Virus record (IMG/VR): IMGVR_UViG_3300027747_004764
Location: 1-29,243 of that record
Reading direction: 5' to 3' (one strand)
DNA: 29,243 nucleotides
Source: a virus
This document shows, piece by piece, positions 3,404 through 29,175 of this stretch (position 1 is the stretch's first letter; each line of letters opens with the position of its first letter). Position numbers and translations under genes: made by a program. The notes below the pieces were generated by a model, which did no database searches, was not told the DNA's origin, and worked only from the letters and a program-made list of their open reading frames with translations.

Positions 3404-5497
3404 TTATCTGCTCTCACGATAGCTTTTGGACGTTGTGGGAGATATGGTAATATTAGTTAAATTTTTACTGTTGTTTACAAAATTAGAACTCTTAGTTGTT
3501 TGATCTGCTAGAGCTCGAGCTAATGTATTAATTTCATTAGCAACTTGTTTGGTCATTGCACTGCTTTCTGCTAGCTGTCTGTCTACAGTTTTGTTAGTTT
3601 TTTCAACAACAGTCATGAGAGCTTTGAGTGTTTGAACTGTTTCTTCTGATCCACCTCTGAGTGTTTTGAGATCCTTTACACCAATAATGTTATCATTGGG
3701 GCTAAATGGTATGGGTCTTTGACCGGGGCGTGATAAAAAGTCTTGCTGCATATTTTCCCATGGACTTGGAATGCCTTTTTCATAGCTTTCTTGGATTTGT
3801 TCGCCCATGATTTCTCCTGCAGTGTTGCCTAGTTCAAATACCTGTTCAGTTAAATCAGCATCAAATCGTTCTTTAAGTCTATCTGCAGCTGCAGAATCTT
3901 TGAGAAATGGTGTGTACCTGGCTAAATGCTCAGCAGAACCAAAGATAAATTTGTTAGTGGCATCAGGTATTTGTAGAATTAGATTAGCATAAGTTTTAAG
4001 TGTTTCTTCAAGAGTTTTATCTTCTTTATAATATAAATCTTGCCATTTTTTGAGTTGTTTAGCTACTGTACCTTGAGCATCTTCTGTACCCAAAATACCA
4101 AAAGAATAAAAATTAGTAACACCTTCACCCAAAGCTTCCATGCCTTTTTCATATTTGTTTTTTGCAGTAATTTCACCCTTTTCTTCTTGTCTTTGATTTG
4201 CTTTGTAAGTTTCATATGAAATTCCTAACTGCGCTAAAGAATGCATAGCTCCTTCTATAATAGGAATTGCTTTAGATGCTGCGCCTGCTATATTTCTAAC
4301 GCCTTTGCTTTCTTGCAGAAGCCCCTTTAAATTTTCTACTCTGCCTAGAGTGTTTTCTTTTAACCAAGCTGTAGCTTTAGCCCATTGTTCTTCAAACTTT
4401 ACACCTTCTTCCATTCCAACTCCTCCCACCATGTCTCTAATAATTTCTTTGCCACTGGTTTTTACATATTCAGGCAATTCTTTGGTTGCTTGTATGATAT
4501 CCTCTATTATAGATGTTTTTACCTTTACTAGCTCTCTAATGTCTTCTGGTCTATACCCGCGCTCTTTTAAATCTTTCAATGTAGCAGTTAATTGTCTATA
4601 CATGCTATCAGGTTTATCAATATTATCTAATATGCTATCAAGCTGTAATATGTTTTTACTTAAAAATTCATCTTCACTTTTTGCTAATAGCTCAATTTTC
4701 TTTGCATAGTCAAGCTCTTTCATGCTTCCTAACATTTCATCTACATTTATTTTTTTTCCATTTATAGCTTCATCAAATGCTTCTTTAAAGCCTAAAGCTT
4801 TAGGATCTGTTGTTGCACCTCTTATAACTAGGTTCTCTATAGTTACTTCAATAGGCTCACCATTGCGAAGAGCTTCAGTTAGAGGGTCTGTTACTCTAGT
4901 TACAGGTTTTTTTGGTACTATTTCTGCTACATTTTCTGATGCTTTTGCAGCAGCTTCACCTGCTTTTTCTGCAGCTTCAGTTGCTTCTTTAACTGCATTT
5001 ATAATCTTACCCTTACTACCTTCACCAGCTTTTGCAGCAGCTTCAGTTGCTTCTTTAACTGCATTTATAATCTTACCCTTACTACCACCTGATACAAGAT
5101 AGTCCTTTAATAGCTCAAGCACACCTAGTCCAGATGCTAAAGCGCCAAGTACTCTTAATAAATCTGATATCCAAGATGATTCTTTTTTAGCAATTCTTGT
5201 TTCTATTTTTGGGGGTTTAGGAAGAACAGTTTTAAGCACTCTACCAAGCTGTGCTAACACCTCGTCATTAATACTATCCAAATTTACCGGTACTGCTTGA
5301 TATATTCTTTGCTTGCGTCTCAATCTTGAATAGCTATTTTTTTCTTTCTGTTCATCGGACATATTATCTTGAAATAAAGATGTAAATCGGGTTGTATTGT
5401 CTTCATTCTTAGATTGAGATACATTAAGAAATTCAAGAATAGAATTAACTTTTTGATCTAAGCTATCTAGATTATTAGTTAGTACATCATCGGTCAT
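3404..5497 (-). CDS. Tail tape-measure-like protein
   Basis: This 697-residue, mostly helical protein is rich in Ala, Glu and Lys. It has a predicted hydrophobic helix near residues 110-135 (SWISDLLRVLGALASGLGVLE) and a duplicated 22-residue alanine-rich helix near residues 138-180. Long coiled-coil-like stretches follow, then a Ser/Thr/Asn-rich C-terminus. These are common features of tape-measure proteins, which fill the tail tube and set its length. Position also fits: it lies after tube and assembly-factor genes and before tube cap and hub genes. T4 gp29 is shorter (about 590 residues) and no sequence match to it is obvious. The ATG is at 5497, with a CATAAATA box 6 nt upstream. A different baseplate-associated coiled-coil protein cannot be excluded. 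Confidence 0.5.
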   Translation of the reverse strand: MTDDVLTNNLDSLDQKVNSILEFLNVSQSKNEDNTTRFTSLFQDNMSDEQKEKNSYSRLRRKQRIYQAVPVNLDSINDEVLAQLGRVLKTVLPKPPKIETRIAKKESSWISDLLRVLGALASGLGVLELLKDYLVSGGSKGKIINAVKEATEAAAKAGEGSKGKIINAVKEATEAAEKAGEAAAKASENVAEIVPKKPVTRVTDPLTEALRNGEPIEVTIENLVIRGATTDPKALGFKEAFDEAINGKKINVDEMLGSMKELDYAKKIELLAKSEDEFLSKNILQLDSILDNIDKPDSMYRQLTATLKDLKERGYRPEDIRELVKVKTSIIEDIIQATKELPEYVKTSGKEIIRDMVGGVGMEEGVKFEEQWAKATAWLKENTLGRVENLKGLLQESKGVRNIAGAASKAIPIIEGAMHSLAQLGISYETYKANQRQEEKGEITAKNKYEKGMEALGEGVTNFYSFGILGTEDAQGTVAKQLKKWQDLYYKEDKTLEETLKTYANLILQIPDATNKFIFGSAEHLARYTPFLKDSAAADRLKERFDADLTEQVFELGNTAGEIMGEQIQESYEKGIPSPWENMQQDFLSRPGQRPIPFSPNDNIIGVKDLKTLRGGSEETVQTLKALMTVVEKTNKTVDRQLAESSAMTKQVANEINTLARALADQTTKSSNFVNNSKNLTNITISPTTSKSYRESR
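4955..5086 (-). repeat. 66-bp in-frame tandem repeat in the tape-measure-like gene
   Basis: Two adjacent 66-bp units (4955-5020 and 5021-5086) are nearly identical: their right-hand 50 bp (4971-5020 and 5037-5086) match perfectly, and the left 16 bp differ at a few positions. Each unit encodes 22 residues beginning SKGKIINAVKEATEA. The unit is a multiple of three, so the frame is kept and one helical segment is added. Confidence 0.9.
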
Positions 5498-20634: not shown

Positions 20635-21366
20635 TTAATTGGCTAATGCGGATACTATAAATTTCATTGTTATATTATTTAAATTAGCATCAAACACATA
20701 AACACCTGTTTTACTTGAGAATGAACAATTAAGCTCTTTAAACTTCATAGAAGAAATTATTCTAAATACTTCAAAATTCAACGGCGTAGATGTACTCAAT
20801 TGTACTCCTGAGTAGTCATTAGAAATAATAAGCCCATAAGAATCAACATTTGGTCTCGTTTTATCAGTAAGTTCACCTAAAACAGTATTATCTTTATAAG
20901 AAAGATATATTTTATTAGAATCTGTTGCAATTGTACTGCCTTTAATAAGATTCTGTAAATAATTGAAATTAAATGTAAACTTACCATCAAATGTTAGTGA
21001 GGTAAGTTTATCAACATTAAGCTTGGGAGATATAATAATTCCATCTTCAAATAAATGATACTTAAATCTTACGCTATCCGATGTATATGCAATATTGTTC
21101 TTACAGATGTTTATATTTAAATCCTGCGTGTCTATGACAGAGAAAATTCTTATTAGTTTGCTTAAATCAGGTATATTAAGTGTTATATTATCTGACTTGA
21201 TAGTGTTCTTTAGCTGTGCACTAAGAATAATTGTATTGTCATTTGTTGCAATCAATGAGCTGAGTATATTATCTTCAATCTTAAGTACTGCGCTGTTAGT
21301 AACTTTGCTAATAGGAGTAAGAAAATTATTAATAAAAGCATTTTTATCTTGAATAGTAAGGCTCAT
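20635..21366 (-). CDS. DNA sliding clamp, gp45-like
   Basis: The 243-residue protein is close in length to T4 gp45 (228). It has the alternating strand pattern of a two-domain clamp, with 'ILSSLIATNDNTIILSAQL' in domain 1 and a second-half 'FTFNFNYLQNLIKGSTI'. An 'IYLSYKDN' strand and a C-terminal MKFIVSALAN strand follow. In T4 the trimer tethers the polymerase to DNA and also recruits RNA polymerase for late transcription, which would suit the TATAAATA-like boxes found here. It lies between gp32-related genes and an unknown. ATG at 21366; a TAGAAT hexamer sits 5 nt upstream. Clamp loader genes are not in this window. No single residue decides the call. Confidence 0.7.
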   Translation of the reverse strand: MSLTIQDKNAFINNFLTPISKVTNSAVLKIEDNILSSLIATNDNTIILSAQLKNTIKSDNITLNIPDLSKLIRIFSVIDTQDLNINICKNNIAYTSDSVRFKYHLFEDGIIISPKLNVDKLTSLTFDGKFTFNFNYLQNLIKGSTIATDSNKIYLSYKDNTVLGELTDKTRPNVDSYGLIISNDYSGVQLSTSTPLNFEVFRIISSMKFKELNCSFSSKTGVYVFDANLNNITMKFIVSALAN

Positions 21367-21393
21367 TTACTATTCTATTGTAGCGGTATGTTT

Positions 21394-21753
21394 TTATTTA
21401 TCAAGTAAATTTACAGCTTTTTCAAGATTACTATTAATCTTATTCAAGACTTCAATAAGAGGCTCAATACTAAACACAGGTGTAGCTGCCGGTGTTGGGG
21501 GTGCTTGATAAATGTGTTGCTGCATACCTACAGGTAGAGCCTGCGGTGGCGGATTGCTACTTGGTGCAGCAATTCTGTTAGGTGATGGAATTGAATTTAA
21601 AATGTTATTAATATCAAGCATATTACCTTTTAAGGTATTAGTCTTGCCAATAATATTTTTATCTAGTTCTTTAATTTCTCCTAAGTTTTGACCCATGAAT
21701 TGGAGAGCAAGAAGTTTTGCCTCTTCAGGCGTAGGTTCCTTAAAAGTATCCAT
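21394..21753 (-). CDS. Proline-rich hypothetical protein
   Basis: The 119-residue product starts MDTFKEPTPEEAKLLALQF, has an asparagine-rich linker, a Pro/Ala-rich middle (NPPPQALPVGMQQHIYQ; APPTPAATP) and a C-terminal helix (LIEVLNKINSNLEKAVNLLDK). The first base of its ATG is the last base of the gp32-like TAA (TAATG), so it is coupled to gp32. It could be a small replication or recombination accessory protein binding gp32 or the clamp through its C-terminal helix; nothing in sequence confirms this. Confidence 0.6.
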   Translation of the reverse strand: MDTFKEPTPEEAKLLALQFMGQNLGEIKELDKNIIGKTNTLKGNMLDINNILNSIPSPNRIAAPSSNPPPQALPVGMQQHIYQAPPTPAATPVFSIEPLIEVLNKINSNLEKAVNLLDK

Positions 21754-22601
21754 TATAGATCTTCTAGAAGTTTCTCTAGACTTTCATCTGTTGACTTAAC
21801 AGATTTAACTGGTGCTTCAACTTTTGAAGGCACAGGTGTATGAGTTTTAGGTCTCTCTACAACTGCAACTTCTGTCTCTTCATCAGCATCTACCTTGCAA
21901 TGATAGTGCTTATCAAGCATATCTTTAAGCTCATCATATGATTTTACAGTGATGTAGGATTCAAGATCAAATGCATTCTTGAGAGTCTTATCATAACTAT
22001 CTTCATCCAGCCCTTCAACTTCCTTGGGTGTTGTAAATTTAGATGAAACATATGTTGGGTAATCGCCTTGCTTTTCTACTTTAATCTTAAGGTTAACACC
22101 CTTTGGTGAGAGATCAAAAATGCGTGGGCCAAGCTCTTCTGCGTCTTCTCCCTGAATTCCATCCATAATGATCTTATGAAGTTGACGGCCAAATCGTAAG
22201 ATTTTTACCTTGTTGTTATTTTCCTCATTAACAGGGTCATTAATTACATAACAATTAACAAGCCAGCGCTCAGTCCGGACAATGCTCTTGGCTTTTTCCT
22301 TTTCCTGTTCAGTGCCATTGCGTAGAACACGGTATCGTTCTTCTGCAATAGGATCACGCTCATTCCATGTTGTGGGGCTTATAAGAGTAATAAGCTGGCC
22401 AGTAGAAAGACTGTTCCAACCATGGGAATAATAATGCAAAAAGGTTTTCGAAGGGTCTTTAACATTAGGAAGAAGGCGTACTGTGTAGGTGTTGCCTGGT
22501 TCTGTGCGAAGAAAATCCTTCTGTTTATTTGCACCTGATGCGGTTTCTTTGGTAAGAGCACTTTTAATGCTTTCAAACATTGATGAAGTTAATGAATTCA
22601 T
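21753..22601 (-). CDS. Single-stranded DNA-binding protein, gp32-like
   Basis: The 282-residue protein contains an OB-fold core with 'YTVRLLP', 'FLHYYSHGW', 'ERWLVNCYVINDPVNEENNNKV' and 'ILRFGRQLHKII'. An acidic, flexible tail ends LEKLLEDL. T4 gp32 (301 residues) has the same 'N-x-x-V-x-x-DPA-x-PEN-x-GKVFxYRFGKK' order and an acidic tail ending DDLLNDL. The T4 zinc-binding cysteines are absent: the insert here reads LISPTTWNERDP. Cyanophage gp32 proteins also lack them. It protects ssDNA and coordinates replication and recombination. I chose ATG 22601, 4 nt after the upstream stop; a later ATG at 22580 is possible, and an earlier in-frame start at 22628 would overlap the upstream gene. TATCAT lies 6 nt upstream. 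Confidence 0.8.
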   Translation of the reverse strand: MNSLTSSMFESIKSALTKETASGANKQKDFLRTEPGNTYTVRLLPNVKDPSKTFLHYYSHGWNSLSTGQLITLISPTTWNERDPIAEERYRVLRNGTEQEKEKAKSIVRTERWLVNCYVINDPVNEENNNKVKILRFGRQLHKIIMDGIQGEDAEELGPRIFDLSPKGVNLKIKVEKQGDYPTYVSSKFTTPKEVEGLDEDSYDKTLKNAFDLESYITVKSYDELKDMLDKHYHCKVDADEETEVAVVERPKTHTPVPSKVEAPVKSVKSTDESLEKLLEDL

Positions 22602-22605
22602 AACT

Positions 22606-23283
22606 CTATGATATATTCTTTTTAACAATATTCAACTCATTTTTTAAATTATTTTTTAATTTATCTAAACCATTTACTACTAAACGTTTACATTTTAATG
22701 AGTTGAGAAACTTAATTTTTTTTAGATTGACGTTATTTATAAAACTGTCATTGAACATAAATCTCAATACTTCTCTATCTGTTTTGGATAAGCAATTATT
22801 TAGGTTATCAAAACTAAGAAGTGAGTAAAGATTTATATCTCTATCTTTTAGATGCAGTAAAAAGGTAAATAAATTATTTGTTGTGTGTTGCAGATAATCT
22901 TGTAATTGAATGTTGTTGTTTTTACAAAAATTATAAATAAAAACTAAAGATTTTTTAGTATAGTCAAGTTGCTCTTGTGTATCTGGATCGAGATTATTTA
23001 TATTATTAAAATGTATGGTGTATGCTTTTACGGCTTTGAGTGTATTGAAATAGCATAAATTAAAATATTTTTCATCTTTATATAACTTATAAGATGCTGA
23101 AAAAAAACTATGCAAATCTATTTCTTTATGTTTGCCAAAAAAATGACTGAGCTTTTTTAAGCATGCAGCAGTCTTGTCATCTATATCATTAAAGTCTTTT
23201 TTTAAATTGCAAGGTTTATTCTGATGTTGTCTCGAGGCTCTTAAATGCGTGTTATATATATGTTTTTCGTAATCTGATATCAT
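22606..23283 (-). CDS. Hypothetical helical protein upstream of gp32
   Basis: The 225-residue protein starts MISDYEKHIYNTHLRASRQ and is highly helical, with a 'HKEIDLHSFFSASYKLYKDEKYFNLCYFNTLKAVKAYT' region near residues 50-90 and a basic C-terminus (LKCKRLVVNGLDKLKNN). In T4 the gene upstream of gene 32 is gene 59, the helicase loader (217 residues, all helical). Size and position match but no sequence similarity is evident to me, so this is only a candidate analogue. Its ATG overlaps the TGA of the bS21-like gene (ATGA), and its stop lies 4 nt before the gp32 start. Confidence 0.7.
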   Translation of the reverse strand: MISDYEKHIYNTHLRASRQHQNKPCNLKKDFNDIDDKTAACLKKLSHFFGKHKEIDLHSFFSASYKLYKDEKYFNLCYFNTLKAVKAYTIHFNNINNLDPDTQEQLDYTKKSLVFIYNFCKNNNIQLQDYLQHTTNNLFTFLLHLKDRDINLYSLLSFDNLNNCLSKTDREVLRFMFNDSFINNVNLKKIKFLNSLKCKRLVVNGLDKLKNNLKNELNIVKKNIS

Positions 23284-23486
23284 TTATAGTTACGCCATTT
23301 TAACCTGGCAAACTCTTTTTTCAATCTTTTCTTTTTACTTGGTTTATTAAAATATCGCCTAAATCTTAATTCTTCTATTACTAAACTTTTTTGTACTTCT
23401 CTAGTGAATTTGTTGTACATTTTATCAAAATACGGTTTTTCTAAGCTTTTACTTTTGTTTAGTATTACTTCGGATTTAATTATCAT
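23280..23486 (-). CDS. rpsU: Ribosomal protein bS21-like
   Basis: The 68-residue very basic product has the bS21 layout: a short strand-containing N-terminus, an FDKMYNKF-type helix (residues 20-27), then EELRFRRYFNKPSKKKR (38-54) and a basic tail. E. coli bS21 has FDVALRRF, EVRRREFYEKP and a basic tail, in the same order and spacing. Phage-encoded bS21 is documented in marine phages, including a pelagiphage, and in large uncultured phages. The protein would join the 30S subunit near the anti-Shine-Dalgarno region and may change which mRNAs are translated. It sits in a run of genes with ATGA overlaps at both ends. The N-terminal 15 residues differ from host proteins. Confidence 0.8.
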   Translation of the reverse strand: MIIKSEVILNKSKSLEKPYFDKMYNKFTREVQKSLVIEELRFRRYFNKPSKKKRLKKEFARLKWRNYK

Positions 23487-23764
23487 AACTTATTAAAGTT
23501 TTTAGAATTCAAAAATTTCATTATATATTTACTCTTGTATAGCGTGGAATCAAAAAATAAAAAATATTTTAATGCATCATAGTCATTCTTAAAATCACAA
23601 TAATTAATTAAAAGATCTCTAAATCTTCGTTCCTTTAATACAAGAAGAAATACATTGGCTAAATTAATTTTTTTAGGCTCTAATAATGCGCAGAATGTGC
23701 AGAAAGATAGAAATAAATGATTTATTTCAACTTCTGAAATTTTTTCTGCGGGGTTAATATTCAT
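23483..23764 (-). CDS. Hypothetical protein
   Basis: The 93-residue protein starts MNINPAEKISEVEINHLFL and is helical and rich in Leu/Phe/Lys, with a hydrophobic stretch (LFLSFCTFCALL, near 16-28) and 'LKERRFRDLLINYCD' near 45-58. The hydrophobic stretch is short and flanked by helices, so a membrane segment is uncertain. No family is seen. It is coupled by ATGA overlaps both to the upstream DHH-like fragment and to the downstream bS21-like gene. Confidence 0.6.
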   Translation of the reverse strand: MNINPAEKISEVEINHLFLSFCTFCALLEPKKINLANVFLLVLKERRFRDLLINYCDFKNDYDALKYFLFFDSTLYKSKYIMKFLNSKNFNKL

Positions 23765-24051
23765 TTAATGGGATAGAGTAATTTTGTTAACTCTAGAAAT
23801 GTCTTTGTTATCTTACCGCCAGCAACACATGCGTCACCGCCACCATCAAATATTTTTTTAGCAAATGCACCAAGATCAACACAACAGGTCTTTTTTTTCC
23901 GTATACTAACGTTAGATGTGTTGATGTTAACACTTATTGCAATATCACAATCATATGCTTTAATGAGCATATCACAAATTTCAGAAGGAAAAATGCTATT
24001 GAATGTGCTGCATATTTTAATATTATTGCTACTAATCTTAATATTTCCCAT
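23761..24051 (-). pseudogene. DHH phosphoesterase, C-terminal (DHHA1) part, separated by duplication
   Basis: The 96-residue frame starts at an internal ATG and carries GGGDACVAGG (residues 70-79), close to the DHHA1 motif G-G-G-H-x-x-A-A-G that binds substrate in DHH/DHHA1 phosphoesterases. Here the usual His is Asp. In the same frame, the upstream 206-residue product would continue straight into it (K204, then V, F, M) if one copy of the 106-bp duplication were removed, giving a 302-residue enzyme. Thus this is probably the detached C-terminus of a once single gene. It may still be translated from its own ATG. Its TGA overlaps the next start (ATGA). Confidence 0.65.
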
Positions 24052-24057
24052 AAAAAC

Positions 24058-24273
24058 TTTTAATTCATTAAATGTTTTTTCAATTTTATTTGTAATATTA
24101 TTAATAGCGTTCTCCTGTGTATCAGTGAACTGTTCAAATCCATTTTCAAAAGTATTATAAAATTTTTAATTCATTAAATGTTTTTTCAATTTTATTTGTA
24201 ATATTATTAATAGCGTTCTCCTGTGTATCAGTGAACTGTTCAAATCCATTTTCAAAAGTATTATAAAATTTTT
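24058..24273 (-). repeat. Perfect 106-bp tandem duplication that breaks the DHH gene
   Basis: Positions 24058-24167 and 24164-24273 are identical over 110 bp with a 106-bp period (4-bp overlap of TTTT). No mismatch was found when both copies were compared base by base. The period is not a multiple of three, so the reading frame shifts and the DHH gene stops at 24155. Short TTTT flanks suggest slippage during replication. Confidence 0.95.
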
Positions 24274-24775
24274 CTAATTTACTATTATTGCCGCTTTCAT
24301 ATGTATTAAAAAGATAGTGTAACTTTTTTGATTCAGGAAATGTTAGGTTGTAGCTGTCATAATCATTGATTAATGATATTAAAATTTTTTGATTTCTAGT
24401 AAATGGTACTTTAAACTTTTCTTTTAATTTTTTATACAATAAAAGTGTACAGCTAGGTGAATCTTGTGATTCTTGTCTCATGTATTTAATTGGTAGGCTG
24501 CTGTATTGCTCAGTGTTTCTATGATTAATAAAAACAATATTAGGTAGGTCTATTACATCTAAATTTTGCTCAATAACTGCTAGATCACATATATAGATTT
24601 TTTTATATTTGTCTTTGTTGGGTAAAGAAATGAAGTCATCTCTAAATTTTTTTTCTGATGTTTGTTTGTGTGTAAAATTATTGCCTATAACTTTTCTCAA
24701 GACATAGTAACAACCTGCACCATCAATATCACAATCAGTGAATAAATAGAGGTCTTCCCTTGTGTCATGGCTCAC
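24155..24775 (-). CDS. DHH-type phosphoesterase, N-terminal part (frame broken by duplication)
   Basis: The 206-residue product has DHH-family catalytic landmarks: D14 and D16-I-D18-G near the N-terminus (TDCDIDG, resembling H-x-D-x-DG), D64 in IYICDLA, and NHR (84-86) where DHH is usual, followed by a helical linker. DHH/DHHA1 enzymes include NrnA-like nano-RNases, RecJ-like exonucleases and cyclic-dinucleotide phosphodiesterases. The canonical DHH is N-H-R here, so activity may be altered. The start is GTG at 24775. The frame ends in the duplicated segment; without it the protein would join the 96-residue C-terminal part. A sequencing or assembly artefact is the main alternative for the break. 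Confidence 0.65.
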   Translation of the reverse strand: MSHDTREDLYLFTDCDIDGAGCYYVLRKVIGNNFTHKQTSEKKFRDDFISLPNKDKYKKIYICDLAVIEQNLDVIDLPNIVFINHRNTEQYSSLPIKYMRQESQDSPSCTLLLYKKLKEKFKVPFTRNQKILISLINDYDSYNLTFPESKKLHYLFNTYESGNNSKLEKFYNTFENGFEQFTDTQENAINNITNKIEKTFNELKIL

Positions 24776-24804
24776 TATCTATCTTAATTAAAAAAATTGC
24801 TAAA

Positions 24805-26130
24805 TCAACTTATGTTCAAATTGTTTAGTGTAGCAATTGAAGATGTAGAAGCTTCCGTATCATTGTTAATTTCATCTTCTGTTAAAGTTAATGTGGAGTA
24901 ATCAATCTTCATGTTACAACATCCAAAGTTTTCTCCAAATCGATTTTTCATTAATCCCATCTTAATAACACCAAGTTCTTTATCTGTATCTTCCTGCCAA
25001 ATACTCAATATTACATCTGCAGTATGTCCTAATCCCATAGATTCTGACAAGGTATTTAATCCAGGGTCACTTATATCATAACCTGAGCGATTGAGCTGTG
25101 TAGCAGAAATAATTGGAAAATCAAAAACATAACTTATAGCTCTCAATTGCTCGGTAATATTTTTTACTCTTTCATAGGTATTATTACCAATTGAAGAATG
25201 CAATAAATTAATATAATCAACAACAAGAGCATCAATCTTAATACCCTGATTAGTAATTTTCTTAATAAAAGCTTTTAAATGGTTGCAAGTAATTGTAGAG
25301 GGAGGAAATTCTTTAATAATAAGCTTTGATTTAGAATTTTCATTCTTATATTCTTGAAGTTGTTGAAATAAGGTTGATGATTCAGATTTTAAATGATGAA
25401 ATGGTATTTTGGTTATATTGGTGCATATGCGCTTGGCATAAATTATCTCTGGCATCTCAAGAGATACTAAGAGAACTGTTTTTCCCTGTGAAGCTATATT
25501 TGTAGCAACATTGCCTAAGAAAATACTTTTTCCTATATTTGTTTCTCCAGCAAAAACATAGAGTGCTCTGCCTTTCTCAAGAAACCCACCACCCATTTTT
25601 TTATCAAGCCACTTCCATTTAGATGATATATACTTTTCTTCTGTGTTAAGATCATTAACAATAACAGATATATCTTCGAATAAATCAAGTCCAATATTAG
25701 TTGCAAGAGATATGTTACAAGCTTTTTCAAATTTATCGAGTACTACAGATGTATCTACTTTATTTTTAGTAATGTCATCTACCACTTCCAACATAGTAGT
25801 ATAAACAGCTTTTTCTTTTAAAAATGCTTCTGTATTAGCAGAAAGCTCATCTACATTAAATGTTTTGTCAAAATCCTTAACAAGAGTTATGGCATTCTTA
25901 AAGCTGTTTTTTAATTCATCTGTAGTAAGATGAGCCTTTATCTCTGTATTGTTTGGTCTTGTACCTCTGCTAAGATAGAAATCTTTGATAACTGTAAATA
26001 TATTTTTAATATCTTTACTTTTAAAAAATTCTGGTTTAATATAATCAATAATAGAAGCTAGATATGTATCGTCAGTAAGAGATTTGTATAGAAGTACATT
26101 TTCAAAAAAATCTAAATCAAGCTTACTCAT
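24805..26130 (-). CDS. Replicative DNA helicase, gp41/DnaB-like
   Basis: The 441-residue protein (T4 gp41 is 475) has a helical N-terminal domain and a RecA-like motor. It has Walker A AGETNIGKS (194-202), SLEMPE (223-228), Walker B ALVVDYI (301-307), and the SATQLNRSGY motif (342-351) typical of DnaB-type helicases. It unwinds DNA ahead of the fork and works with the primase encoded 6 kb downstream. The acidic, Ser/Thr-rich C-terminus is short. ATG at 26130 with TATAAT 6 nt upstream, 16 nt after the glycosyltransferase stop. No helicase loader is confidently recognised near it. Confidence 0.9.
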   Translation of the reverse strand: MSKLDLDFFENVLLYKSLTDDTYLASIIDYIKPEFFKSKDIKNIFTVIKDFYLSRGTRPNNTEIKAHLTTDELKNSFKNAITLVKDFDKTFNVDELSANTEAFLKEKAVYTTMLEVVDDITKNKVDTSVVLDKFEKACNISLATNIGLDLFEDISVIVNDLNTEEKYISSKWKWLDKKMGGGFLEKGRALYVFAGETNIGKSIFLGNVATNIASQGKTVLLVSLEMPEIIYAKRICTNITKIPFHHLKSESSTLFQQLQEYKNENSKSKLIIKEFPPSTITCNHLKAFIKKITNQGIKIDALVVDYINLLHSSIGNNTYERVKNITEQLRAISYVFDFPIISATQLNRSGYDISDPGLNTLSESMGLGHTADVILSIWQEDTDKELGVIKMGLMKNRFGENFGCCNMKIDYSTLTLTEDEINNDTEASTSSIATLNNLNIS

Positions 26131-26146: not shown

Positions 26147-26845
26147 TTAATTTGAATATTCACTAAGAAATTTTTTCTGACTATCAAGAAATGCATTGCT
26201 GTTTGGATCTAATAGTCCTGGTGATTGGTGTATTACCCAAATTGGTGCTACACCAAGTTTAAGCTTCTTTTTATTTGCATCCAAACAGCTGGCAATATCA
26301 TAATGGTGAAAGGTATAGTTCTCATTGAACCGCCAATCAGCTTTTAAAATAACACTAGTATTAATACTTAAAAATAAACCATCAAGCACAGCAACACGGG
26401 ATGGTGTAGGACCAAAACTAGTAACATAAATTGAATCTTTATTAGCAGGGTGTGCAACAGCTCCACGGAGATTACCTCCATTGAACCCACCACACATTAA
26501 GTGCCAGAGTGCCGGTTGTTGTATGTGTGGATTGACACCGCCAGCAAGACCTACAATATCATACTGCTTGTGTGCTTCAAGAAGTTTATTGCAAATATTA
26601 ATATCATCTACATATACGTCATCATGCAGAAAGACAATATAGTCGTATTTTGTAGCTTCTGCTTGTATAATTTTATTGTAATTTAAACTGAGACCATGTG
26701 TGTTATTGCCGTTATAAAAAATATGAAAATCGAGGTCTTCAGAAAAAAAACATGATGTGTTTTTCTTAACAATTTTAAGTGATTTAAAAGCGAGTGTATT
26801 TGTAGGCTCCTGTGACCGTGTCGCAAAATAAAATGCAATTTTCAT
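26147..26845 (-). CDS. Glycosyltransferase, GT-A fold (GT2-like)
   Basis: The 232-residue protein has a Rossmann-like N-terminus (MKIAFYFATRSQ), a 'YDYIVFLHDDVYVDD' strand-turn with the GT-A D-x-D-type acidic cluster (D75-D76, near 70-81), and a FGPTPSRVAVLDGLFLSI strand. 'FHHYDIASCL' follows near residues 184-193, where GT2 enzymes often have an acidic base. The sugar and acceptor cannot be read from sequence. Its ATG overlaps the TGA of the upstream amidotransferase (ATGA), so the two are coupled, and the rhamnose-type enzyme lies 6 kb away. It could decorate tail fibres, head, or modified DNA. No signal peptide or membrane segment is visible. Confidence 0.75.
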   Translation of the reverse strand: MKIAFYFATRSQEPTNTLAFKSLKIVKKNTSCFFSEDLDFHIFYNGNNTHGLSLNYNKIIQAEATKYDYIVFLHDDVYVDDINICNKLLEAHKQYDIVGLAGGVNPHIQQPALWHLMCGGFNGGNLRGAVAHPANKDSIYVTSFGPTPSRVAVLDGLFLSINTSVILKADWRFNENYTFHHYDIASCLDANKKKLKLGVAPIWVIHQSPGLLDPNSNAFLDSQKKFLSEYSN

Positions 26846-27528
26846 GTTGTAAAAAAAGGTGAATTGCTTTTAAAAGTTCCTACAGATGTGAGACCTTCTA
26901 TAGTTTGCAAATAAAGTACCCCCTCTTCTAAAGGCTTATATCCGTTATACTTTGCTGAAGAAAAATCATTAGTGAGAAAATCTGCAAATATAGTACTACC
27001 AGATCTTGCTAAATATATATTGTTATTTTTTGAATTTAAAATCCAAACACCAAAGTTACCCTTTAGCATGGAAAGCGCTTTGCATATTGCGGTTGTTTCG
27101 TTTTTTTCACTTTTGCAATAATGATCAATTAAAGCAGGAATAAGAGAAGAGTCAACTTCATTTATGGTCTTATATTTTTTAAGTAAATTTCTTAGTTCTT
27201 TCTCATTACTTAAAACACCATTGTGCGCTACGTGCCATTTGCCTGTATTAAATGGGTGTGAGGTGTCATGTGCATATTTTCTAGCAGAAGATGTAGGCGC
27301 TTGCGAGTGGCCAAGAAAATGCTTAAATTCTTTAAAATCTTTTTTCTTATTATTTTTTAGACTTAGATACATTTTATCTGTGAGTTTAAATACACCGGCT
27401 GATTTTACAGTAGCGTGTATTTTTGTGTCAAACATAATTGAGCCATATGCAAAAGCACCGCGACCCATGTTTTTTGCATAAAGCTTTATATATGTCTTAT
27501 AATCTGATGATCCAAATATTCCGCACAT
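26842..27528 (-). CDS. Stand-alone class II glutamine amidotransferase
   Basis: The 228-residue Ntn-hydrolase-type protein starts M-C-G-I-F-G, so the catalytic cysteine (C2) is exposed after Met removal. It has RG (23-24), GHSQAPTS (73-80), HPF (91-93), HNG (102-104), D126 and LARSGS (173-178), the recurring landmarks of GlmS/PurF-type amidotransferase domains. The position that is usually Arg in GlmS (GH-T-R) is Gln here. No synthetase, isomerase or other partner domain follows. It could feed ammonia to an acceptor enzyme, with QueC (archaeosine-like DNA modification) or amino-sugar formation as candidates. ATG at 27528 with TATAAT 8 nt upstream; the stop overlaps the glycosyltransferase start (ATGA). 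Confidence 0.85.
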   Translation of the reverse strand: MCGIFGSSDYKTYIKLYAKNMGRGAFAYGSIMFDTKIHATVKSAGVFKLTDKMYLSLKNNKKKDFKEFKHFLGHSQAPTSSARKYAHDTSHPFNTGKWHVAHNGVLSNEKELRNLLKKYKTINEVDSSLIPALIDHYCKSEKNETTAICKALSMLKGNFGVWILNSKNNNIYLARSGSTIFADFLTNDFSSAKYNGYKPLEEGVLYLQTIEGLTSVGTFKSNSPFFTT

Positions 27529-27566: not shown

Positions 27567-28442
27567 ATGAATAACGACTCAAAGCTTATCTTTGAAATGT
27601 ATGTAAAGCATAAGCAAATGTTAAATGAAGCGCCACCTGCATATGCTATGGGAGATTTAAATATTTCTGAACCTGCATTGCAATCTGCTCCTGGAGGCGG
27701 ATACGGCTTAAAAAAAGCAGCAACTAAAACAGGCAAGTCAATGAAAGAAGTTACAGATGCACTTGTTAAAAAAATACAGTCATTGCTTTTTAAACCTGAA
27801 GCGCATAATGTTGATGGTATTGAATATAATTTGTTTTATCCAGGCAACGAAATGAAGTTGCGCAATGATCTTCAGGCTTTAGTACAAACGGAACTAGGAA
27901 TAGGTAAGACAGAAGCTAACTATACAGCTAGAATTATACGCAACATGTTGAATATTATTGTAAAAGATGAAAAAACTGGTGGCATTGCTGTTTCTCCTGA
28001 AAAAGTTCAGAGTGCAGTTAAAGCAGCAGTTGCTAAGCCTGCGAAGACAGAAACTGTGTATGAGATAGATAAAAGTGTAAAGATTTCAGACAAACCATTA
28101 AGAGCTCTTCTAAATGCACTCCCTGATGAAGATGTGCATGAAAAAGAAATTCTTTCTGCAATTAAAAATGCAATAAGTGAGTATAATGATACTCCTGGAC
28201 TTGAAAAAGAGAATATAATTAAAATGAAAGCCATGGAAGCTTTTGATAAATTAGTTGAAGCAGGTGCATTAAAAACAAAACAAAAAGAAATTGAAGCAAA
28301 AGAAGGTGAAGGCACAGGAGAAGTTGAAACAATGGATGAGTACCCTGAGTCTGATGAACCTACATCAGTTGCAAGAGAATTAGGAATGGTTGGCAGAGGT
28401 GGCGGGTATGATGCTGGTGGCTTTAGTTACGGTGATTCTTAA
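27567..28442 (+). CDS. Possible head-associated structural protein, unknown
   Basis: The 291-residue protein starts MNNDSKLIFEMYVKHKQML; I-F-E at residues 8-10 fits the L/I-x-E site used by T4-type prohead proteases. The body is charged and helical with an Ala/Lys-rich middle (SPEKVQSAVKAAVAKPAKTE), and the acidic C-terminus ends in a Gly/Tyr-rich tail (GRGGGYDAGGFSYGDS). No enzymatic motif is seen. AATAAATA sits 7 nt before its ATG. The last 20 bp overlap the end of the convergent queC gene. A virion role is inferred only from the N-terminal motif, late-type promoter and lone plus-strand placement. Confidence 0.65.
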   Translation: MNNDSKLIFEMYVKHKQMLNEAPPAYAMGDLNISEPALQSAPGGGYGLKKAATKTGKSMKEVTDALVKKIQSLLFKPEAHNVDGIEYNLFYPGNEMKLRNDLQALVQTELGIGKTEANYTARIIRNMLNIIVKDEKTGGIAVSPEKVQSAVKAAVAKPAKTETVYEIDKSVKISDKPLRALLNALPDEDVHEKEILSAIKNAISEYNDTPGLEKENIIKMKAMEAFDKLVEAGALKTKQKEIEAKEGEGTGEVETMDEYPESDEPTSVARELGMVGRGGGYDAGGFSYGDS

Positions 28443-29175
28443 TAGAGCTGCAATTAAACTTTTCCCAAGGTATCTCAATCTTATAAGAAATAGGATCTAT
28501 AAGCCCTGCCTCTAAAAACCCTTTAATGCGTAAAGAGCAAGCTGTACATTCACCGCAAGCTTGCTCTTTTCCTTCATAGCAGGTCCAGGTTTGACTAAAT
28601 TCAACACCTAACTTTACACCGAGTTTAATAATTTCTTCCTTAGATTTATCAATTAAAGGAGCTATAACTTTAATCCTGTTTCTTCGGTTTAAATCACTAA
28701 CTTTGTTAATTTGATCAAGAAATTCAACACTACCATCCCAGAAACCTGCAACGCTATCAGCTTGTGCTGCTCCATGAAAAACAGCAAAAGCACCGGTACT
28801 TTCTGCTATGCCAAGTGAAATGCTCAAGAGCATTAGGTTTCTAAAAGGTACATAGTTTACTGTTTGAGGATCACCCATCACATCCTTGGCTTTTGCAATA
28901 GCAATATTACTGTTGGTAAGTGCAGATGTTTGACAAATGTCTTTGAAGAAAGGAATTTTTATGAATCTGTAGTCGACTGGTTGATCGAGGCTTTCTACCT
29001 GAAACGAGGCACAGTTAAGTTCTTTTTCGCGATGCTTTTGACCATAATCAAAACTTACAGCTACAATGCTATCGTATTTACTAGCTGCATAGTGTAGTAG
29101 GACAGTACTGTCCATACCACCAGAAATGGGTACAACTGCCTTACTCGACTGGTTCTTCTTCTGTTTGCGCTTCAT
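28423..29175 (-). CDS. queC: 7-cyano-7-deazaguanine synthase, QueC-like
   Basis: The 250-residue protein has the ATP-binding SGGMDS loop (18-23), DYGQKH (43-48) and VP-x-RN (109-113). It also has GFWDGSVEF (144-152, where QueC usually has GYPDCRPEF), APLIDKSKEEI, and a Cys4 zinc site (C199, C207, C210, C213). QueC converts CDG to preQ0, the precursor of queuosine, archaeosine and 7-deazaguanine DNA bases. The altered substrate loop retains Asp but lacks the usual Cys-Arg. Start ATG 29175 lies 35 nt inside the upstream gene; no other start precedes the ATP loop. TATAAT lies 4 nt upstream. Confidence 0.9.
   Translation of the reverse strand: MKRKQKKNQSSKAVVPISGGMDSTVLLHYAASKYDSIVAVSFDYGQKHREKELNCASFQVESLDQPVDYRFIKIPFFKDICQTSALTNSNIAIAKAKDVMGDPQTVNYVPFRNLMLLSISLGIAESTGAFAVFHGAAQADSVAGFWDGSVEFLDQINKVSDLNRRNRIKVIAPLIDKSKEEIIKLGVKLGVEFSQTWTCYEGKEQACGECTACSLRIKGFLEAGLIDPISYKIEIPWEKFNCSSIKNHRN

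Follow-up and report, generated by a model that had tools for sequence, protein, structure and literature searches.

The DNA analysed here, referred to below as the window, comprises 29,243 bp and is listed in IMG/VR as a linear virus record assembled from a metagenome. It encodes a tail sheath, a tail tube, a terminase large subunit, a primase, a single-strand binding protein and a helicase of the gp41/DnaB type and, on the basis of these structural and replication genes, we consider it a piece of a T4-like phage; no DNA similarity of the window to cultured phages was found. A split gene for a DHH-type protein lies on the minus strand, right after the helicase gene; it is followed by two ORFs of 93 and 225 aa and then by the gene for the single-strand binding protein (Table 1). 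Neither the 93-aa nor the 225-aa ORF of this replication block could be linked to a known family of note. Elsewhere in the window, a QueC-like gene (28423-29175) and a class II glutamine-amidotransferase-like gene (26842-27528) occur close together, and both match parts of phage families of the glutamine-fructose-6-phosphate aminotransferase type.

Table 1. Features of the split DHH gene and its neighbours in the window
Feature	Position	Strand	Basis
DnaB/gp41-like replicative helicase, directly upstream of the DHH gene	24805..26130	-	PF03796, E 1.5e-29; phrog_19, E 4e-77; present in 78/80 relatives' loci
206-aa ORF, GTG start, DHH catalytic domain and linker helix	24155..24775	-	ORF list; phrog_4771 positions 14-193, E 5e-4
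106-bp unit, gene-upstream copy, continuous with the DHH catalytic part	24164..24269	-	exact match at offset 106; TRF
106-bp unit, gene-downstream copy, runs into the DHHA1 part	24058..24163	-	exact match at offset 106; TRF
TTTT, 4-bp microhomology common to both unit ends	24270..24273, also 24058-24061 and 24164-24167		breakpoint comparison
96-aa ORF, cut-off DHHA1 substrate-binding part, frame open from 24165	23761..24051	-	ORF list; phrog_4771 positions 196-289, E 8e-7
Single-strand DNA-binding protein, downstream	21753..22628	-	phrog_224, E 4.5e-37; present in 73/80 relatives' loci

The gene is cut in two by a 106-bp stretch that occurs in two adjacent copies within it. At an offset of 106 the sequence is identical from 24058 to 24167, with zero mismatches between the copies, and this run extends over 110 bp, rather than 106, because TTTT stands at both unit ends. 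TRF reported a tandem repeat at 24053-24273 with a period of 106 and 99% matches. An exact match of 110 bp is far beyond chance, and the coordinates given in the first-pass annotation proved correct. No further identical run longer than 20 bp was found at this offset in the whole window, and in 821 kb of sequence, comprising the window and 128 fetched loci (129 records), the duplication at 24058-24269 was unique in being a perfect tandem with a period longer than 45 bp. Another repeat in the window, a 66-bp in-frame tandem of two copies with a 95% match (4954-5086), is located inside a 697-aa ORF (3404-5497).

The duplication produces a frame shift of +1. Translation from GTG 24775 terminates at 24155-24157 after 206 aa, two codons beyond the junction; the downstream frame is open for 134 codons, and the two frames overlap by about 10 nt at an A5 (AAAAA) run just before the stop. 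When one copy was deleted in silico, a single frame of 302 residues was obtained in which K204 is followed by V-F and then by the 96-residue part from M207, exactly as had been calculated earlier when the frame break was first noticed.

Homologues of the protein were collected by a profile search of IMG/VR, from which 80 loci were kept out of at least 444. The gene constitutes one full open frame in 78 of these loci, the remaining two running off contig ends, and no internal tandem repeat reaching 20 bp was detected in the 78 complete homologues. The closest relatives (L004, L005 and L008) show 73-74% protein identity and, among the 79 homologues whose sequence extends far enough for a judgement, the split is seen only in the window. 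The order helicase, DHH gene, 93-aa ORF and single-strand binding protein is retained in nearly all loci, with the 93-aa ORF present in 79 of 80, and the helicase-adjacent position of the DHH gene is kept down to about 30% identity. The wider block corresponding to window positions 20635-26130, which carries the helicase, the DHH protein, the 93-aa and 225-aa ORFs, the single-strand binding protein and a clamp-like ORF, is conserved in very divergent uncultured phages (80 loci, L002-L091). Given the single frame in all complete relatives and the conserved place next to the helicase, the intact gene is therefore ancestral, and the split is derived and private to the window contig. Thus the expectation that relatives would carry a single intact gene was borne out (78/78 complete homologues), and homologues consistently split at the same place were not seen. 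The contig of L008 (IMGVR_UViG_3300017761_007662) ends at 4648-4650 inside the DHH gene, at residue 216 and shortly past the point homologous to the duplication; this is probably a coincidence and was not used as evidence. An exact-DNA search for a second record of the same phage, employing the unit together with both flanks, found nothing in a record set from which near-identical entries may have been withheld.

Comparison with L005 yielded dN values of 0.19 for the N-terminal part and 0.18 for the C-terminal part, and synonymous sites were saturated or nearly so in each of them. This equal purifying signal in the two halves indicates that there has been no decay since the break and, taken together with the zero mismatches between the copies, it follows that the duplication either arose very recently or did not take place in a phage at all. 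The earlier inference of a very recent event therefore holds, since the copies are exact, provided that the duplication is real.

The joined protein was matched by phrog_4771 (DHH phosphoesterase) with an E value of 4e-14 at positions 14-289, compared with 5e-4 and 8e-7 for the halves apart. Pfam gave no match to the joined protein, a tblastn search with the 206-aa part gave none either, and PADLOC yielded only weak, partial hits, which are implausible for this fold and were rejected. The AlphaFold2 model of the intact homologue L005 (pLDDT 88.5) consists of a DHH domain joined through a long linker helix (180-199) to a DHHA1 domain, and this model, together with the phrog_4771 match of the joined protein, places the gene in the DHH/DHHA1 superfamily. 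On the L005 model the junction maps between the linker helix and the first DHHA1 strand (202-209), so that the gene is broken where the catalytic domain borders on the substrate-binding domain. In NrnA, substrate binding is carried by the DHHA1 domain (PMC5593865), so that impaired function would be expected of the 206-aa product.

Foldseek matches of the L005 model included PggH, NrnA, PAP phosphatase and RecJ, and GdpP was also matched structurally. With VIA-align, archaeal RecJ, RecJ-Cdc45 and Cdc45 were matched over nearly the full length, the best full-length matches after 5yh1 being RecJ-Cdc45 7bhi (Z 17.3, 270 residues) and Cdc45 5dgo (Z 14.9, 275 residues). Thus the predicted fold of L005 is nearest to that of archaeal RecJ, with Cdc45 close behind. 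No study of this DHH protein family was found in the literature on phage DHH proteins. Among the described groups, the phage DHH phosphoesterases of phrog_4771, exemplified by Bacillus phage SP-15, are matched by the joined window protein over residues 4-293, and the SP-15 gene product is 24% identical to homologue L002 over 97%, but they differ in that the window frame is broken and the window clade carries NHR instead of DHH. The nanoRNases NrnA and PggH share the two-domain DHH-DHHA1 layout and fold and a length of about 300 residues, whereas the window protein has a motif I of the form FTDxDxDG, lacking the histidine, as well as NHR for DHH and GGGD for GGGH. Archaeal RecJ and Cdc45 are full-length structural matches and the phage gene adjoins that of a replicative helicase; however, identity to RecJ-Cdc45 and Cdc45 is only 13% and 8%, respectively, the phage protein carries neither the CID nor other RecJ insertions, and helicase binding is purely conjectural.

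The sequence motifs of the window protein depart from those of most homologues. The DHH signature (motif III), present in 67 of 80 homologues, is replaced by N84-H85-R86, and the GGGH substrate motif of DHHA1, present in 66 of 80, is replaced by GGGD; members of the window's clade carry NHR, HHR or NHG for DHH and GGGD, GGGT or GDGT for GGGH. Metal ligands were taken as the aspartates of motifs I, II and IV and the first histidine of motif III, with ligand roles assigned from the NrnA literature (PMC9757072), and all of them (D14, D16, D18, D64, H85 and D138) are present in the window and in 80/80 homologues. The earlier designation as a DHH-type phosphoesterase gene is therefore upheld by the DHH/DHHA1 fold of the intact homologue but not by the DHH and GGGH motifs. 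The 14 sequences with motif loss constitute one clade with a support of 0.985 in a midpoint-rooted tree; its members are the window gene (24155-24775), L012-L023 and L043. The DHH signature and the GGGH motif were lost once in this clade, with the metal-ligand positions and purifying selection being kept.

Cdc45 is a relative of RecJ that has no nuclease activity, and the motif loss, the neighbouring helicase and the RecJ/Cdc45 fold match together invite a comparison with it. In a clade of T4-like phages, the helicase-adjacent RecJ-family DHH/DHHA1 protein, having lost its motifs in their common ancestor, might play the part of Cdc45 and serve the helicase without acting as a nuclease. We consider this unlikely and the comparison is a lead only; that the protein may be an altered but active enzyme, given the retained metal-ligand aspartates, is an equally open reading.

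For the split itself, the explanation that we favour, with moderate confidence, is a spontaneous 106-bp tandem duplication at a 4-bp microhomology, giving rise to a loss-of-function allele in the phage. Replication slippage or template switching would have joined the second copy at TTTT at a very recent time, either in this phage lineage or only in some of the sampled population. Owing to the +1 shift, the DHH catalytic domain would be parted from the DHHA1 substrate-binding domain where the linker helix ends, with a loss-of-function or strongly impaired allele as the likely outcome. The exact adjacent copies and the breakpoint microhomology conform to the class of short-homology tandem duplications, which are likewise head-to-tail exact copies with a few bp of homology at the breakpoints, private to one lineage and revertible in principle, although the window case is known from one assembled molecule only. 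The breakpoints share 4 bp on the right and 0 bp on the left, and 4 bp or more are shared at 2.5% of random sites 106 bp apart in the window, so that the microhomology by itself argues only weakly for slippage or template switching. Beyond TTTT, the sequences flanking the breakpoints showed no ungapped similarity above chance (9/24 positions, P 0.20-0.28). Against a real duplication, the gene block is conserved across very divergent phages and no second contig of the same phage was found; in this conserved context a fixed null allele would be surprising, which gives more weight to an artefact or a minority variant.

The main rival to a spontaneous duplication is an assembly or amplification artefact. 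In that case the real phage would carry the unit once, in a 302-residue gene that is whole, and the second copy would stem from a chimeric read, a faulty merging of contigs or an error in repeat resolution. This is a serious alternative that we hold to be the less probable. It is consistent with the source being a linear metagenome fragment, with the zero mismatches over 110 bp, with the uniqueness of the split among the 79 judgeable homologues, and with a neighbouring block that is conserved in 78/80 relatives and two gene halves that both look constrained, as expected of a whole gene. However, a graph assembler needs reads containing the junction, and no other such error occurred in the 129 records (821 kb). 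Moreover, neither the unit length of 106 nor the match length of 110 is a k value commonly used by assemblers; this makes a simple k-mer overlap error less likely, but it has no bearing on a chimeric read or a merging of contigs. If the duplication is real, the gene might still yield protein: two pieces could be made, the 206-aa DHH part and a DHHA1 part initiated at ATG 24051, or a +1 slip at the A5 run could give a single product carrying an insert of 35 residues. Both frames are open where they overlap at that run and the break falls in the interdomain linker, but ATG 24051 has no ribosome-binding site, relatives carry lysine where the window has the methionine of this codon, no known slip motif is present and the gene is unsplit in relatives; such expression is possible but not indicated, and we regard it as very improbable.

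Exact tandem repeats of such length are unstable in general; the unit length is not divisible by three, and loss of one copy would restore the frame. The first-pass annotation had suggested that the repeat may act as an on/off switch, as repeat-mediated deletion could restore the gene. We give hardly any credence to an evolved, reversible switch that would work through gain and loss of the second copy. No second copy, internal repeat or frame break exists in any of the 78 complete homologues, including three at 72-74% identity, and the copy-number or frame differences that characterise phase-variable genes are thus lacking (78/78 single-copy and in frame), the nearest relatives compared being other species. 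The unit ends carry no recombination site or special structure apart from the 4-bp microhomology, no excess of promoters or terminators was detected at the repeat, and phase variation would not be expected in a conserved replication block. Under the favoured spontaneous duplication, restoration of the gene by loss of one copy would be an incidental property. A gene can therefore look like a switch while comparison with its relatives says otherwise.

The duplication itself matters little: in an uncultured phage, it is either one more frameshifting tandem duplication of recent date or a slip of the assembly. Of more interest is the gene family, a conserved helicase-adjacent DHH protein of which one clade lacks the signature motif.
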